A stretch of 64,000 nucleotides of DNA. It comes from Acidobacteriota bacterium. GTDB lineage: Bacteria; Acidobacteriota; Blastocatellia; Pyrinomonadales; Pyrinomonadaceae. Each line of letters starts with the position of its first letter. The stretch's first letter is position 1. Shown piece after piece: positions 11,235-54,870 of this stretch. The notes below the pieces were generated by a model. That model was not told the DNA's origin. It saw only the letters and a list, made by a program, of their open reading frames with translations, and searched no databases. The stretch spans positions 129,187 to 193,186 of the forward strand of contig JAFDVJ010000012.1 in assembly GCA_018269075.1 (NCBI GenBank). Reading direction: 5' to 3'. The position numbers and the translations under genes are program-made.

Positions 11235-11258
11235 TTTCCGAAAAAGCTCTCGACCCTC

Positions 11259-11348
11259 GACTCTCCACTCTCCACTCTCCACTCTCCACTCTCCACTCTC
11301 CACTCTCCACTCTCCACTCTCCACTCTCCACTCTCCACTCTCCACTCA
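11259..11348. repeat. Heptanucleotide array (CTCTCCA)x12
   Basis: About twelve almost perfect tandem units of CTCTCCA end 70 bp before the typA start codon. Unlike most arrays in the window it has no facing inverted partner. The unit is stop-free in all six frames. Confidence 0.95.
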
Positions 11349-13235: not shown

Positions 13236-13553
13236 AAGTTCTGAGTTCCGTCTTACGGTCAATAACCTTAAGATAAGTCGAAAGTTGAATTTATTTAATA
13301 GTTTAATAGGCCGCGGATGACACGGATGACGCGGATTTTCACGGATTATTTGTTTTATAGTCGACGACGGAAATTGTTGATAAAGCCGCTGTTCCGTTGC
13401 GTTGGCTGTTTTTTCTTTCCACTAAAAACACCAAAAACACTAAATTATTTCGTGTTTTTGGTGTTTTTAGTGGAAAGTTAAATAACCGTTCGATAGTTTA
13501 ACGATCATTATTCCAACCAATTTTGTCACGAGCGGCCAGAAGATTTTGTCGAT
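13236..13553. repeat. Gene-free spacer with a perfect long hairpin
   Basis: No gene is seen. At 13415-13440 and 13452-13477 there are perfect 26-bp inverted arms (starting CTTTCCACTAAAAACACC) around an 11-nt AT loop. Each arm carries the 9-10-bp motif CACTAAAAA twice. Upstream, 13311-13357 has short direct repeats around CGGATGACACGGATGACGCG. The right flank shares CATTATTCCAAC with the first 95 bases of the window. Confidence 0.85.
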
Positions 13554-27357: not shown

Positions 27358-27526
27358 TTGAGTGGAGAGTGGAGAGTGGAGAGTGGAGAGTCCGATTGAC
27401 TTATTTCCTTTGAGCGGAGAGTGGAGAGTCCGATTGATTTATTTCCTTTGACTCTACACTCTCCACTCTCCACTCTCCACTCTTTACTCTCCACTCTCCA
27501 CTCTCTACTCTCCACTCCCGTTGCAG
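27358..27526. repeat. Facing inverted heptamer arrays (GAGTGGA/CTCTCCA)
   Basis: About six units of GGAGAGT-type repeat face about ten units of CTCTCCA-type repeat. In the middle a 24-bp stretch (TCCGATTGA...TTTCCTTTGA) is duplicated. The array overlaps the 3' end of the sigma gene, whose stop TAG is formed from repeat sequence. Confidence 0.9.
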
Positions 27527-28089: not shown

Positions 28090-28111
28090 TTTTATCGTTT
28101 AAACTCAAGAA

Positions 28112-28268
28112 CAGTTTAGAATTAAGAATTAAAAATTAAAAATTAAAAATTAAAAATCTGAAAGAATCCCGTTAAAAAAAAAGGAGCCGTCTCGACGGTC
28201 TCCCAATTTTTATTATTTTTAATTTTTAATTTTTAATTTTTAATTCTTAATTCTTAATTCTTAATTCC
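28112..28268. repeat. Facing inverted heptamer arrays (TTAAAAA/TTTTTAA)
   Basis: Arrays based on AATTAAA/TTAAAAA (28112-28157) face TTTTTAA/TTCTTAA arrays (28208-28266). They flank the terminator of the CHAT gene. Another unit sequence, same 7-bp period and facing layout as elsewhere. Confidence 0.9.
28173..28204 (-). terminator. Rho-independent terminator after the CHAT gene
   Basis: Minus-strand GGAGACCGTC/GACGGCTCC stem with one bulge and GA loop, followed by nine T. It separates the CHAT gene from the sigma gene, so the two may be transcribed separately. Confidence 0.8.
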
Positions 28269-34826: not shown

Positions 34827-35305
34827 GCGGCGACGAGGAGGTTCGGGAAGAGGAGAAGGGGAGAAGGGGAGAAGGGGAGAAGAGGAGAAGGGGTGAAGGG
34901 GAGAAAGGGAGAAGAGGAGAAAAGACGGGTTGTGATCGGGGTTGTCAGGCACTTCGAACTTCTTCGCGGTTGATGATGATCGGCGACGGTTTTTATGAAA
35001 TCGGCGGGAAAGCCGTGAAAATCGGGAACTGTAAAAGTAATTGCGTAATCGAAGGAAAAAGCCGCGATAGCCGCGCGTCAAACCGGTTCGGGTGTCAAAC
35101 GGCGCGGTTCATTCGGTAAATGAAAAGACCGGCCGGCGAATGGTTGTTTTCGATCCACGAAATACACTAAAAACACTAAAAAGAAACGAATATAAATTTA
35201 GTGTTTTTGGTGTTTTTGGTGGATCGATAAACAATTGTTCGCGATTGTGAAAGTTCTGATCAAACGGCTATTTCGGCCCCGGATTCGAAAACCTCTTATC
35301 CGTCG
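34827..35305. repeat. Gene-free region: purine octamer repeat and palindromic element
   Basis: 34853-34925 is a strongly purine-only run with unit GGGAGAAG (about nine copies). 35150-35225 is an imperfect palindrome with CACTAAAAA motifs whose left flank (CCGGCCGGCGAATGGTTG at about 35128) matches the left flank in the elements at 47064 and 53921, so it is a decayed copy of that family. No gene seen. Confidence 0.8.
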
Positions 35306-36847: not shown

Positions 36848-36861
36848 CGCTTATTTGGTCT

Positions 36862-36957
36862 TCGGTCTTTGGTCTCTGGTCTTTGAAAAATCGACAATCA
36901 AAAATCAAAGGTCAAAGATCAAAGATCAAAGACCAAAGACCAAAGACCAAAGCCCCG
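36862..36957. repeat. Facing inverted heptamer arrays (GGTCTTT/AAAGACC)
   Basis: Four units of (T)GGTCTTT-type sequence face eight units of AAAGACC/AAAGATC-type sequence across a short AT spacer. It lies between the small acidic protein gene and the P4-type phosphatase gene (divergent). Confidence 0.9.
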
Positions 36958-41935: not shown

Positions 41936-42064
41936 GGGAGAGAGTCTTGAGTCTTGAGTCTTGAGTCTGCATTCCCGGACGCGCGCGCTTCACACGGAAG
42001 CGGATTCGGCCGAATCGTCGCGCCTGCGTCCGGCTCAAGACTTCAGACTCAAGACTCAAGACTG
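41936..42064. repeat. Facing inverted heptamer arrays (GAGTCTT/AAGACTC)
   Basis: Four units of GAGTCTT face four of AAGACTC/CAGACTC around a 70-bp centre with no clear structure. No gene lies between 41893 and 42148. Confidence 0.9.
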
Positions 42065-43112: not shown

Positions 43113-43222
43113 CGATTTCGGATTTCGGATTTCGGATTTCGGATTGTCCGGAACGGGAAAATTCCGTCGTCGACGAAGACTGAAGACTAAAGACTAAAGA
43201 CTAAAGACTAAAGACTAAAAGC
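43113..43222. repeat. Two unrelated heptamer arrays: (GGATTTC)n and (GACTAAA)n
   Basis: About four units of GGATTTC (43116-43145) and about six units of GACTAAA (43177-43219) occupy most of the spacer between the two epimerase genes. Both have 7-bp period but unrelated sequence; here neither has a clear facing partner. Confidence 0.9.
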
Positions 43223-44230: not shown

Positions 44231-44866
44231 ATGAAAGCCTTCCGAACGATCGTCTTTTTTATCAGTATAATCTCGCTTTTCGCCGTCGCCGCGTCCGCGC
44301 AGGAAACCGGCGGCGCGAAGGGCAAGGTCCGCAGTATGAAGGGCGACGCGCTCGCCGGCGCGACCGTCACGGCGCGGCTCGACGGTAAGGACATCAAATC
44401 CGTCAAGACCGACGCGAAGGGTGTTTTCGAGCTCGGCGGGCTCGCCCCCGGCGTCTACAACTTCGTCTTCGACAAGAACGGCTACGATCTCGGCGTCAAA
44501 TACAACGTCGAGATCAAAAAGAAATCGGTCGTCGACCTCGGCGACAATCTCCGGCTCGCTCCCGATAAGGGTTCGCTCGTGATCATCAACGGCAGCGTCT
44601 TCAATCAGGACGGCCGCAGCGTGACCGGGGCCGAGATCAAGGTCGAAAAGCTGCTTGCCGACGGTTCGACGAAAAAAGTCGGCAGCGGCTACACGAGCTC
44701 GAGCGGCGAATTCACGATGCGTCAGCCCGAAGCCGCGGCCACGTTTCGCGTCACCGCTTCGCTTCGCGGCGTCAGCGCGTCAAAGGAAATAAAAGTCGAC
44801 AGCGCCGGCATCTACCGCGTCGCGCTGACGCTCGAGCTTCCGAAAGAAGGACGGGAAAAAAACTGA
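44231..44866 (+). CDS. Secreted protein with two carboxypeptidase-regulatory-like domains
   Basis: 211 aa. Signal peptide (ends ASAQE). Two beta-sandwich modules: about 30-115 (GKVRSMKGDALAGATVTARL... FELGGLAPGVYNFVF) and about 120-208 (GSVFNQDGRSVTGAEIKVE... GEFTMRQPEAA). These domains act as binding or spacer modules in secreted and TonB-linked proteins. It starts 6 bp after the epimerase, so likely the same operon. Its stop TGA is the first three bases of the adjacent GGATTTC array (TGATTTCGG). Confidence 0.88.
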   Translation: MKAFRTIVFFISIISLFAVAASAQETGGAKGKVRSMKGDALAGATVTARLDGKDIKSVKTDAKGVFELGGLAPGVYNFVFDKNGYDLGVKYNVEIKKKSVVDLGDNLRLAPDKGSLVIINGSVFNQDGRSVTGAEIKVEKLLADGSTKKVGSGYTSSSGEFTMRQPEAAATFRVTASLRGVSASKEIKVDSAGIYRVALTLELPKEGREKN

Positions 44867-45117
44867 TTTCGGAATTCGGATTTCGGATTTCGGATTTCGG
44901 ATTGTTCGCGGAGTAAGGCGATCGTTTTCAGACGACACGTCCCGAAAGAAAATCAGCAGCCGAAACCACAAAATCAAGCGTCCTGCCCGAATATTCACAT
45001 TCCGGCAGGACGCTTTTGTTTATCGATCTTTTATTCTCTCTTCCCAAACCCTCGATTTCGCCGTCGAATTTCCCAAAACCGACAATCCGAAATCCGAAAT
45101 CCGAAATCCGAAATCAG
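44866..45117. repeat. Facing heptamer arrays spanning a convergent gene pair
   Basis: (GGATTTC)n at 44866-44905 and its complement at 45080-45117 lie at the very ends of two convergent genes. Each array begins with TGATTTCGG, so each supplies the stop codon of its neighbour gene. A terminator hairpin lies between. Confidence 0.92.
44976..45019. terminator. Bidirectional terminator
   Basis: Stem AAGCGTCCTGCC/GGCAGGACGCTT with a loop of about 16 nt and T run on the plus strand. It serves the convergent genes at 44231-44866 and 45114-45548. Confidence 0.85.
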
Positions 45118-46589: not shown

Positions 46590-46661
46590 TTTTTCCCCCT
46601 CTTCTGGTTTTTCTTAAATTTTTACTTTTCCCGGCCCGTTGGTCAAGGATATAATAGGATT

Positions 46662-46777
46662 TTAGATTTCGGATTTCGGATTTCGGATTTTTTCCGGCGC
46701 GCATTGAGCTGTTTTCGATGAAGCAGATCTGTCGTTTCAAAAAATCCGAAATCCGAAATCCGAAATCCGAAATCGTT
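46662..46777. repeat. Facing heptamer arrays (GGATTTC)n/(GAAATCC)n upstream of a small membrane gene
   Basis: Four units at 46664-46690 face five at 46744-46774, around a 50-bp centre. The right array abuts the start codon at 46778, so any leader transcript from upstream would form a long hairpin ending at the start. Confidence 0.9.
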
Positions 46778-51967: not shown

Positions 51968-52384
51968 ATGGCGGACGCGGGCTGTTATCAGCTGCTGATC
52001 GAGATTAAAAAAGACATCGCCGTAAGCGTCGGCGCGCTCGGCGTTTGTCGTTTCGAGCGGGGCTTTTACGTCTACACCGGGAGCGCGATGAAGAATCTCG
52101 AAAAGCGCGTCGCGCGGCATCGCCGGAAGGAGAAAAAACTGCGCTGGCACATCGATTACCTGCTCGCGCACCCGGCCGTCGAGGTCAAAGACGTCGCGGT
52201 TCATCTCTCGGAAGACAAAGAGGAATGTCTCTACAATCAAAAACTGATCGCCGCCGGCGCGACCGCGCCCGTCCGCGGCTTCGGCTCGTCCGATTGCCGC
52301 GCGTGCGAAGCGCACCTATTGCGATTTCGGATTTCGGATTGCGGATTGTGGATTTCGGATTTCGGATTGGTCTTCTCGATGTAA
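51968..52384 (+). CDS. GIY-YIG-related DUF123 protein
   Basis: 138 aa as read. The core (about 4-115) matches the DUF123 branch of the GIY-YIG superfamily: YQLLIEIKKDIAVSVGALGV, GFYVYTGSAMKNLEKRVARH, KLRWHIDYLLAHPAVEV and GFGSSDCRACEAHLLRF. These small proteins occur alone or fused to endonuclease III and probably act on DNA. The last about 18 residues (ISDCGLWISDFGLVFSM) are read from the GGATTTC array, so the real C-terminus is eroded. Confidence 0.88.
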   Translation: MADAGCYQLLIEIKKDIAVSVGALGVCRFERGFYVYTGSAMKNLEKRVARHRRKEKKLRWHIDYLLAHPAVEVKDVAVHLSEDKEECLYNQKLIAAGATAPVRGFGSSDCRACEAHLLRFRISDCGLWISDFGLVFSM

Positions 52385-52456
52385 CCTGTTCGGTTAAATC
52401 TGAAGCCTCCGCATCCGAACCAATCCGCAATCCGCAATCCGCAATCCGCAATCCGA
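52323..52456. repeat. Heptamer palindrome with conserved 63-bp core, copy 1
   Basis: (GGATTTC)n on the left, (CCGCAAT)n on the right. The 63-bp core 52364-52426 (begins GGATTGGTCTTCTCGATG, ends CCGAACCAATCC) is identical to 53108-53170. Confidence 0.95.
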
Positions 52457-52530
52457 TATTTCTCCTTCGGCAAAAAACTTTCGCGTTTTTCGTTCCTATT
52501 GATAGTTATTTAACAAGGAGTTTTTTACTT

Positions 52531-53082
52531 ATGATCAGACTGAGACAACCGTCTCTGGTGCTGCATTCGTGCGACGTGCCGGGGTATAAATATGAAATGT
52601 GGAAATCGTGGACGATGCCGCGCGGGGCGTCGGCGAGCGATGTCGTTTACTGGATCAACTGGGCGATCGACCATTCGCCCGAAATGGAGCTGCACAACGT
52701 CGTCATCAACTGTCACGGCTCGCCGGGCGGTCTGCACGTCGGCGGCTGCGGGCCGGGCGGGCGCGCGATCTACGCCGGCGATCTCGGCGTTTTCAAGAAC
52801 GTCCGTTCGGGCTCGCTCGGGACGATCTACATCGTCGCCTGCGAGGTTTCGCAGACCGACGGCAAGACGAAGTTCGGCACGAACTTCTGCTCGCAACTGG
52901 CCGTCAACGCCGGCTGCTTCGTGGTCGCGGCCGACAAGATCCAGTCGGTCGATTTCTGGTTCGAAAACTTTCGCCACCCGTTCGGCGCGATCGACGATTA
53001 CGAAGGCAACGTCACCGAATTCGGCCCCTCCGGCAGTATGCAGCCCTGGAACCCCGCCGACGCGACCGGACTAGCAAATTGA
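52531..53082 (+). CDS. Caspase-fold-like small protein
   Basis: 183 aa, ATG 52531 with AAGGAG 10 bp upstream. Two segments resemble the catalytic pair of clan CD peptidases: NVVINCHGSPGGLHVGG (His) and TIYIVACEVSQTDGKTKF (Cys), with the usual spacing of about 50 residues and a following GTNFCSQLAVNAGCFVVAA. No signal peptide. The C-terminus (GSMQPWNPADATGLAN) ends at TGA formed by the next repeat element. Substrate and role unknown; I hold the fold call as a hypothesis. Confidence 0.7.
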   Translation: MIRLRQPSLVLHSCDVPGYKYEMWKSWTMPRGASASDVVYWINWAIDHSPEMELHNVVINCHGSPGGLHVGGCGPGGRAIYAGDLGVFKNVRSGSLGTIYIVACEVSQTDGKTKFGTNFCSQLAVNAGCFVVAADKIQSVDFWFENFRHPFGAIDDYEGNVTEFGPSGSMQPWNPADATGLAN

Positions 53083-53206
53083 TTTCGGATTGCGGATTTC
53101 GGATTTCGGATTGGTCTTCTCGATGTAACCTGTTCGGTTAAATCTGAAGCCTCCGCATCCGAACCAATCCGAAATCCGAAATCCGAAATCCGAAATCCGA
53201 AATCAC
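53080..53206. repeat. Heptamer palindrome with conserved 63-bp core, copy 2
   Basis: Sits exactly between two convergent genes; TGATTTCGG at each end provides both stop codons. Core 53108-53170 is identical to copy 1; the flanking unit arrays differ in number and in GGATTTC/GGATTGC variants. Confidence 0.95.
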
Positions 53207-53625
53207 TCTGGTTCTTTCAGGGTTTTGTCTTTGCGGCAGACCGAAAGCGGGCGGGCGTAGGCGCTTTTGACGACTTCGACCTGATTGGTTTCGGAATTGA
53301 ACCGGCCCTTGAAGCAGGCGCAGCCGTAGCCGTAATCGCCGTTGGTTTTGACCCATTCGGTCTTTTTGAAGGGCGGCGGATAGTCGCCTTCGGCCTGAAA
53401 GCCGCCCTGCGTGCCGATGATCCACTCGCCGTCCTTATCGTCGAGCCAGAAATTGCCGGGCGTCGGGTTCGAAAACCAGCCGCAGCGCGTTTGATCGGGG
53501 ATAGTCAGGGCGGTAAACGCGGCGGCGGCCGTCGTTTCCTCGAACGAACGGTTCGCGACCGACGCGACCGCCAGAGGGATTCCGCAGATAATCGTAATCG
53601 CCAGAAGCGTTAAATTTTTTTTCAT
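53203..53625 (-). CDS. Secreted DUF4087 protein
   Basis: 140 aa. Signal peptide (about 1-22), then RCGWFSNPTPGNFWLDDKDG, EWIIGTQGGFQAEGDYPPPF and VKTNGDYGYGCACFKGRF, matching the DUF4087 pattern with three conserved Cys. Domain function unknown; proteins are small and exported. Stop codon comes from the adjacent repeat. Confidence 0.88.
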   Translation of the reverse strand: MKKNLTLLAITIICGIPLAVASVANRSFEETTAAAAFTALTIPDQTRCGWFSNPTPGNFWLDDKDGEWIIGTQGGFQAEGDYPPPFKKTEWVKTNGDYGYGCACFKGRFNSETNQVEVVKSAYARPLSVCRKDKTLKEPE

Positions 53626-53911
53626 AGATTCGCCTATACGAAGGACCCAAACAAGAATAAAGTCCCTGAAACCAACGACAATCCGGCAATGACAAAACTC
53701 CCCCGCGTTTTATCAAACGTCGATTTCAGTTGGTTGGGTAGATTTTTACTATCTTTTGACTGGTAGTGTACCTTTTTTCTGCGATCTTGAAAAGCGAAGA
53801 TTATTATTTAAAGCAGATTTGCGATCGATGTCCGGCGGGCTGTCAGCCGGCCGAATAAGTTTGCGGGCGTGAAGCCGCGCGACCGAACAAAAAATCTTTC
53901 GCGCGGTTCCC
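53626..53911. other. Gene-free stretch before MITE copy B
   Basis: No convincing gene. AAGCAGATTT at 53811-53820 is complementary to AAATCTGCT at 54214-54222, so MITE copy B may sit inside an older palindrome. GCCGGCGG-type short hairpins lie at 53829-53850. Confidence 0.5.
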
Positions 53912-53920
53912 GTAAATTTA

Positions 53921-54200
53921 CAGAACTGTTCGGCACGTGCTCAAACGCAGTTTTTATGATTTTTGAGACAAACCGCCGCGAAATTTGCCGGGAACTGAAA
54001 AGCCCGGCCGGCGAGCGGCTGTTTTTCGGTCCACGAAACACACTAAAAACACTAAAAAAACACGAATGATATTTAGTGTTTTTGGTATTTTTGGTGGATA
54101 AAAACCGGCTGTTCGCCGGACTGACGGATCAAATTCAATCGAAAAACGCAACTCACGAACGACTCGCCGTTTCGGTCAATTACCGTGCCGAACAACTCTG
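53921..54200. mobile_element. 280-bp palindromic MITE-like element, copy B
   Basis: Same ends (CAGAACTGTTCGGCACG / CGTGCCGAACAACTCTG) and nested layout as 47064-47343, same length. Flanked by identical GTAAATTTA at 53912-53920 and 54201-54209. That 9-mer is nearly self-complementary, so part of the match could also be read as an extension of the inverted ends. Confidence 0.9.
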
Positions 54201-54222
54201 GTAAATTTAACTAAAATCTGCT

Positions 54223-54546
54223 CTAGTCGTGAAAAGTGACGATCGTCGCGCCCCAGCTTCCGGAGAACTCGTCGGCGGTTTTGAAGGATCTGACGAAGGG
54301 CGTGTTTTCGAGCACCTTGCGGACGGCCTCGCGCTGGACGCCGATGCCCTTGCCGTGAATGATGCGGACCAGCTTAAAGCCTTTTTTGCGCGCCTCTTCG
54401 AGATAGGCGATCGTCACCGCCTTGACGTCGCGCGGCGCAAACGCGTGGAGATCGATCGAATCGGTGATCTCGAGCTCGATCGGCTCGTCGATTTCGGATT
54501 GCGGATTGCGGATTTCGGATTGGTTTTCCCGATCGATATCGTTCAT
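54223..54546 (-). CDS. Smr-domain protein with repeat-derived N-terminus
   Basis: 107 aa. Smr domain (about 28-107) with DLHAFAPRDVKAVTIAYLEE and VRIIHGKGIGVQREAVRKVL, the usual DLH and HGKG motifs. Stand-alone Smr domains bind or cut structured nucleic acid, often in ribosome or recombination control. Residues 7-21 (ENQSEIRNPQSEIDE region) are translated from the GGATTTC-type array, and the ATG lies in the core of repeat copy 3, so the start is supplied by the element. Confidence 0.88.
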   Translation of the reverse strand: MNDIDRENQSEIRNPQSEIDEPIELEITDSIDLHAFAPRDVKAVTIAYLEEARKKGFKLVRIIHGKGIGVQREAVRKVLENTPFVRSFKTADEFSGSWGATIVTFHD

Positions 54547-54592
54547 TTTGTTTAAGCCTCCATATTCAAACTAATCCGAAATCATTGCTGTT
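54487..54592. repeat. Heptamer palindrome, divergent copy 3
   Basis: Left arm (GGATTTC/GGATTGC)n inside the Smr gene, core 54527-54577 starting GGATTGG and ending CTAATCC, with TTTAAGCCTCC in place of GAAGCCTCC. Related to copies 1 and 2 but diverged and 12 bp shorter. Right arm is reduced to one unit. Confidence 0.8.
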
Positions 54593-54651
54593 AAAAGTAA
54601 TTCGACGACAGCTGGTTGTCGTGACCGCTGAAAAGCAGCACTGAAGCTTCT

Positions 54652-54789
54652 TGACTGGAGCGCCGGCATCCTTGCCGGCCTGAGCGCGAAAGCGCGAAAA
54701 TGCTTTTCATCATCGAGCAGCGTCGAGGATTTGCAACGTTCGACACCGCTCGCGCGGCGTTGCGGGCAAGGATGCCCGCGCTCCAGTCA
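54652..54789. repeat. Palindromic REP-like element
   Basis: Arms TGACTGGAGCGCCGGCATCC (54652-54671 and on) and GGATGCCCGCGCTCCAGTCA (54770-54789) with a 100-bp centre. Both arms contain the common bacterial motif GGCAAGGATGCC-like. A (GAAATCC)n array follows at 54836-54867, next to the stop of the next gene. Confidence 0.85.
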
Positions 54790-54870
54790 GCAAATTCCTG
54801 TTTTCCTTTAGAAGTCGATCTTTTTAACAGTAATGATCCGAAATCCGAAATCCGAAATCCGAAATCGCCC

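Follow-up and report, generated by a model that had tools for sequence, protein, structure and literature searches.

Heptamer-armed palindromes of an Acidobacteriota genome and their probable relation to 23S rRNA intervening-sequence elements

Palindromic elements of the window

We analyzed a 64,000-nucleotide stretch (hereafter the window) of the genome of an Acidobacteriota bacterium (family Pyrinomonadaceae, class Blastocatellia; assembly GCA_018269075.1, contig JAFDVJ010000012.1, positions 129,187 to 193,186 of the forward strand), which contains palindromic elements consisting of two inverted arrays of heptamers, or arms, on either side of a core. The window is part of the contig designated C33 of genome G000 (7.4 Mb; assembly 86% complete), and feature coordinates refer to its forward (+) strand. 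Copy 1 of the element (52323–52453) is composed of a left arm of 46 bp (52323–52368, 6.5 heptamers of the GATTNNG type), a core of 53 nt (52369–52421), and an inverted right arm of exactly 32 bp (52422–52453) that reads AATC(CGCAATC)x4 and thus holds five motifs. Copy 2 (53081–53204) has a left arm of exactly 32 bp with five GATT motifs (53081–53112), a core identical to that of copy 1 (53113–53165), and an inverted right arm of 39 bp with six motifs (53166–53204). A preliminary description of this DNA had reported an identical 63-bp centre flanked by differing arrays, and both observations were borne out: positions 52364–52426 and 53108–53170 match letter for letter and reach 5 bp into either arm, and the arms differ in unit number (46 and 32 bp versus 32 and 39 bp) as well as in unit variants. 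For the arm pattern GGATTNCGGATTNCGGATT, 28 occurrences were counted in the window where 0.00 were expected.

Folding of the transcripts, which had been proposed as a check, predicted a single long hairpin for each copy, with free energies of –73.6 kcal/mol (z = –9.9) for copy 1 and –66.3 kcal/mol (z = –11.0) for copy 2; none of 200 shuffled sequences folded equally well. The terminal inverted repeats of both copies are thus predicted to be able to form a long stem. The sequence flanking copy 1 is unrelated to that flanking copy 2. A genome-wide search with the 63-bp centre yielded five matches, namely the two copies themselves and related centres on contigs C22 (83% identity), C149 (81%), and C136 (88% over 42 bases), each of which also lies between heptamer arms. 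The differing flanks and the dispersal of the core rule out a single local segmental duplication, the explanation that would have applied had the core been confined to the window. No target-site duplication was seen in the flanks of copies 1 and 2, the available relatives being too diverged to define the exact target.

The preliminary description also listed a diverged third copy at 54487–54592. An element is indeed present at this position (54490–54866), and its kinship to copies 1 and 2 is doubtful. Its left arm of 32 bp (54490–54521) falls within, and breaks, the 5' end of the gene to the left, which is on the minus strand; the predicted protein begins MNDIDREN-QSEIRNPQSEI-DEPIELEI compared with MSDVESDN-PFS-EPVELEI in the related genome G001; in G002, the site at 54490 has a 9-bp spacer. 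The centre (54522–54572) holds the start codon of this neighbouring gene and bears a marginal likeness to copies 1 and 2 (1 of 2000 shuffles was as good), and no resemblance to the remaining members of the 63-bp core family was found. Given this interruption of the gene, the centre may be native sequence, and part of the element could be the gene's native start. The right arm begins at 54573–54583 and resumes at 54836–54866, being interrupted by an unrelated insert of approximately 250 bp (54584–54835). This insert has the ends TGCTGTTAAAA and TTTTTAACAGTAATG and contains GGAGCGCCGGCATCC...GGATGCCCGCGCTCC, which is similar to repeats beside a gene for a Y1 transposase at locus L027.

Arm anatomy, location, and empty sites

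In a search of G000 for the arm-core-arm pattern, about 18 elements were detected, among which several types of core occur. Arrays and arms were counted in an 840-kb sample of this genome, in which arrays with a period of 7 nt numbered 230, compared with 6, 13, and 36 for periods of 6, 8, and 9, respectively; those with a period of 14 were doubled heptamers. The unit GATTTCG accounted for half of the arrays, with other units including GAGTGGA, AGTCTT(A/G), GAGTCGA, AATTTTT, and GGTCTTT. Among 99 pairs of neighbouring arrays, 63 were inverted, most often with a spacing of 46 to 57 nt, and 9 direct. Arm length was sharply defined, with 100 of 140 GATTNCG arms measuring exactly 32 bp and most of the remainder 18, 25, or 39 bp. 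A 32-bp arm corresponds to GATT-(NNN-GATT)x4, in which 3 nt separate successive GATT motifs, five in all, and five motifs per arm were found in 102 of 130 arms of the GATT family and in 44 of 67 of the AGTC family. A five-motif rule for arrays of all periods was considered and rejected, the rule being valid for period 7 only. The proposal that whole elements are copied while their arms turn over rapidly therefore needs to be divided: the elements are dispersed with shared centres and faster-changing arms, and the arms do not drift freely, being instead a fixed module that in most cases has five motifs and 32 bp.

The 63-bp centre was searched for in 60 genomes including G000, and no match was obtained in the 59 others. 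Exact HC-prefixed 32-bp GATTTCG arms numbered 171 in G000 and at most 1 in any other genome of the class, and this form of the arm is therefore regarded as an amplification in G000. On the evidence of these genome sequences, the GATTTCG unit is common to the class, and the 63-bp centre was found in G000 alone.

Arms lie close to the ends of genes. A gene oriented towards an arm has its stop codon no more than 60 bp from the outer edge in 58 cases, compared with 6 cases on the inner side, and many outer edges stop 3 bases short of an ATG, single arm-to-codon distances being approximate given that the gene models were crude picks of open reading frames. Comparison with related genomes revealed sites without the elements. 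At 43114–43219, a GATTTCG arm is paired with an AAAGACT arm, and this element is missing from the orthologous junction in G001, a member of the same genus, where the gap between stop and start codons is 18 bp. Arms of the same family surround a native terminator between convergent genes at 44863–45115; this junction contains no element in G002 and has other arm sequences around its own spacer in G001 and G003. A further gene-less element with the same arm family and another core is located at 46658–46774. In the collinear genomes G109 and G114, which share about 89.5% identity, a 6-bp spacer in the former is occupied in the latter by an insertion of approximately 600 bp with heptamer-type arms on both sides and a single open reading frame between them.

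Insertions were also apparent within proteins. In genus g9 (L140–L169), the linker that joins the two domains of an apparent CoaBC, a protein identified from conserved sequence motifs, is a hot spot of insertion: among 30 species, almost all have a palindromic insert of their own there. Many of these inserts have heptamer or octamer arms, and others contain non-heptamer repeats such as CCCCTCCTTACGAAGGAGGGG; the lengths of 29 of the 30 are multiples of 3, leaving the reading frame intact.

Several other repeats were observed. Stacked arms exactly 5 bp apart, with the spacers GAAAT, GACAT, GGTAT, and CAACT, occur at L072 (13087–13130), L044 (6359–6550), and L054 (1866–1930). Another palindromic family, with nonamer arms (CACTAAAAA) and TCCACGAAACACACTAAAAA...TTTTTGGTGGA, is present in the window at 13420, 35156–35221, 47175, and 54032–54100. 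Heptamer arrays of other units are located at 11247–11347 (unusually long, with 14 units), 27360–27517, 28111–28267, 36854–36952, and 41942–42063, those at 27360, 28111, and 41942 forming inverted pairs around cores. An octamer array of 75 bp and of the GAAGGGGA type lies at 34847–34921. Elsewhere in G000, Y1 (RAYT-like) genes at L027, L029, L030, and L032 each have a distinct inverted repeat nearby (GGAGCGCGGGCATC, GTCAGTAGCGTCGGCGACAG, TCAGTACAGCGAGC, and GTTCTGAGTTCCGCC).

Genes for the 23S rRNA intervening-sequence protein between arms

The open reading frame of the G114 insertion matched PF05635, the family of the 23S rRNA–intervening sequence protein (IVP, or S23p), with an E value of 4.6e-35. 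This family consists of four-helix bundle proteins, and we know of no established function for the protein. In G000, nine PF05635 matches were found at eight loci, all eight of which are bordered by tandem arrays with a period of 7 or 8. The array unit differs from locus to locus, and the inversion between the two sides is clean in most of them, L188 being an exception. To extend this observation, we surveyed IVP loci in named genomes representing about 20 phyla (80 loci) and in the class (30 loci), of which 107 IVP genes were counted; shifted positions (198 positions, 396 sides), deliberately mismatched pairs, and Y1-transposase loci served as controls. Arrays were detected on 155 of 214 sides of IVP genes (period 7, 127) versus 40 of 396 shifted-control sides (period 7, 11). 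Inverted array pairs of the same period flanked 55 of the 107 genes compared with none of the 198 controls, and mismatching of the pairs reduced the number to between 2 and 6 of 107. The same array test was negative for all 20 sides of Y1-transposase loci. All 10 IVP genes on plasmids (of Nostoc, Calothrix, Trichormus, Geminocystis, Pseudanabaena, Leptolyngbya, and Riemerella) had arm arrays, weak in some instances. On the Pseudanabaena plasmid (L317), the IVP gene is located between cas6 and cas4 and has a very long direct heptamer array, approximately 100 bp in length, on each side; the IVP locus L187 is flanked by octamer arms of the GAGAAGAG type.

Gene-bearing and gene-less elements can share their arms. 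The GAGTCGA arms of the IVP gene L183 in G000 are found again at 11 sites of the 840-kb sample. Adjacent junctions of an apparent rpsL-rpsG-fusA operon in G109 are occupied by a gene-less palindrome and by an IVP gene, both with AATCGTA/AATAGTG arms, and the second of these junctions in G114 holds a gene-less element with different, octamer arms.

The window arms are built of short tandem repeats like the arrays that flank IVP genes. No PF05635 gene is present between the arms of the window copies, and these copies are situated in protein genes or between them, not in an rRNA gene as would a 23S rRNA intervening sequence (IVS) in the strict sense. On the basis of the shared architecture, we consider it probable that the window palindromes are gene-less, nonautonomous members of IVP elements and kin of the 23S rRNA IVSs. 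The earlier suggestion of a distinct element family thus holds with regard to a dispersed family and not to a stand-alone one, given that the family appears to belong to a wider class whose gene-bearing members encode PF05635 proteins.

A full element would consist of a 32-bp arm (about 4.5 heptamers), a PF05635 gene, and an inverted arm, with the gene-less form retaining the arms around a core of 35 to 90 nt. By analogy with the 23S IVSs, transcribed arms would form a long double-stranded stem and be cut by RNase III, and such cleavage would render insertion at gene junctions nearly neutral. IVP is a homopentamer (PMC4990558), and the solved structures 2gsc and 2rld each contain five chains. 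The pentamer might recognize five evenly spaced motifs per arm, one per subunit, which would account for an arm that is fixed in the number and spacing of its motifs and free in its sequence; the link between the five motifs and the pentamer, a matching of numbers, is suggestive. IVP may act in trans, spreading gene-less copies with the aid of host enzymes.

Several observations weigh against this interpretation. Its weakest link is that the GATTTCG family of the window has only a partial gene-bearing counterpart. In G000, the GATTTCG unit is shared between gene-less and gene-bearing copies solely through the IVP gene L188, which has mixed GATTTCG/GATGTCG arms, one side being in direct orientation; this 86%-complete assembly yielded no IVP gene bounded at both ends by clean GATTTCG arms. 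Arrays were present on both sides of 62 of the 107 IVP genes surveyed, not all of which passed the array thresholds. The five-motif rule is departed from by period-9 arrays and by GAGT arms, of which 24 have four motifs and 21 have five. The in-frame copies in the CoaBC linker must be translated and therefore cannot rely on removal by RNase III. Finally, neither a target-site duplication nor an integrase was identified, with profile searches covering the Y1, RVT_1, and PF05635 families; flanks and nested arms (with 5-bp spacers such as GACAT, GAAAT, and GGTAT) yielded no consistent duplication, the one case being AAAT/AAAT at L072.

Of the alternatives, that in which IVP elements move by reverse transcription through a resident reverse transcriptase, as Avd operates with the reverse transcriptase of diversity-generating retroelements, fares best and is nevertheless improbable. 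PF05635 has a weak relationship to bAvd (PF22296, E = 5.6e-4), a hairpin RNA could conceivably serve as a template, and G000 has one reverse transcriptase. No RVT_1 match was obtained, however, in 21 of 30 genomes, including G114, G016, G116, and G005 with 17, 13, 10, and 9 IVP matches, respectively, and a general need for a resident reverse transcriptase is thus largely refuted.

The arms might instead be ordinary simple-sequence repeats generated by polymerase slippage that favours 7 nt, with pairing and proximity to gene ends as by-products and IVP genes merely landing in arrays. Heptamers are over-represented in many bacteria, for which slippage has been proposed as the cause (PMC4692102, PMC4679880), and arm lengths come in steps of 7. 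Unit number does not vary freely, however, with lengths peaking at 32 bp; the 840-kb sample contains a single unit sequence at 152 different sites; close arms are predominantly inverted; and arms and gene are missing together at empty sites. We therefore assign this explanation only a slight chance. A similarly slight one attaches to the possibility that the palindromes are miniature inverted-repeat transposable elements of an undetected DDE transposon with IVP as a mere passenger. Such elements are likewise short and gene-less, with terminal inverted repeats, many copies, and empty sites, but the lack of a visible target-site duplication at copies 1 and 2, the adherence of many unrelated arm sequences to one 7-nt spacing and length, and the recurrence across phyla of IVP as the gene between such arms all argue against it. 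Least credible are elements of the repetitive extragenic palindromic (REP) or bacterial interspersed mosaic element (BIME) type moved by a Y1 (RAYT) transposase, which are palindromic and extragenic and for which G000 has 10 Y1 genes, but the Y1 genes found can be rejected as the driving force given that several adjoin their own, different inverted repeats, such as GGAGCGCGGGCATC, and that none of the 20 flanks tested has a tandem array.

Over-representation of heptamers in many bacterial genomes has lacked an explanation, and if arms and IVP constitute one mobile element, this puzzle and the role of IVP would merge into one. In that case, a large share of the DNA between genes in environmental bacteria, and of the linkers that lie in frame in their proteins, would also gain an origin. 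We offer more tentatively, as a speculation that may well prove wrong, that IVP elements are a major overlooked type of bacterial mobile DNA without a transposase or reverse transcriptase of its own, in which a pentamer ring reads five motifs per arm much as TRAP reads its repeats, and that the majority of heptamer repeats in cyanobacteria, xanthomonads, Acidobacteriota, and other groups stem from these elements and their gene-less copies. In the open-access literature, we found no published link between IVP genes and heptamer arms beyond the study of the Coxiella IVS (PMC4990558).

Comparison with known repeats and intervening sequences

Rickettsia palindromic elements are palindromes that reside in frame in protein genes, as do the inserts in the CoaBC linker, and we know of no heptamer arms in them. 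REP and BIME sequences with RAYT resemble the elements described here in being palindromic, extragenic, and present in many copies, and differ in that the heptamer arms show no association with Y1 genes.

The TAACTGA heptamers of Beggiatoaceae form arrays directly upstream of start codons, and a translational role has been proposed for them (PMC4679880). Heptamer arrays at gene starts are thus common to both systems, whereas the Beggiatoaceae repeats are mostly direct, with one indirect. The heptamers GGGAATC and GGGGA(C/T)T of Xanthomonas and Nostoc are dispersed, consist mostly of four units, often occur as inverted pairs near open reading frames or gene ends, and were left unexplained by the study describing them (PMC4692102). 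They share with the present elements the heptamer unit, the prevalence of four units, the many inverted pairs, the proximity to gene ends, and the dispersal, and were treated in that study as simple repeats and G-quadruplex formers, without an element boundary or a linked protein. Xanthomonas possesses an IVP, XCC0516, with a pentameric structure (PDB code 2gsc) (PMC4990558).

The 23S rRNA IVS of Coxiella burnetii encodes S23p, has a 28-bp terminal stem that is cut by RNase III, and contains tandem heptamers, GACAGAT, near its end (PMC4990558). The elements described here differ from it in that they are located between protein genes or in protein linkers, number in the tens to hundreds, are mostly gene-less, and have many arm sequences, with their stem being a prediction. 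They resemble it in their terminal inverted repeats (a stem of approximately 28 to 32 bp), the PF05635-type protein of gene-bearing copies, the tandem heptamers, the sporadic presence, and the parasitic character.
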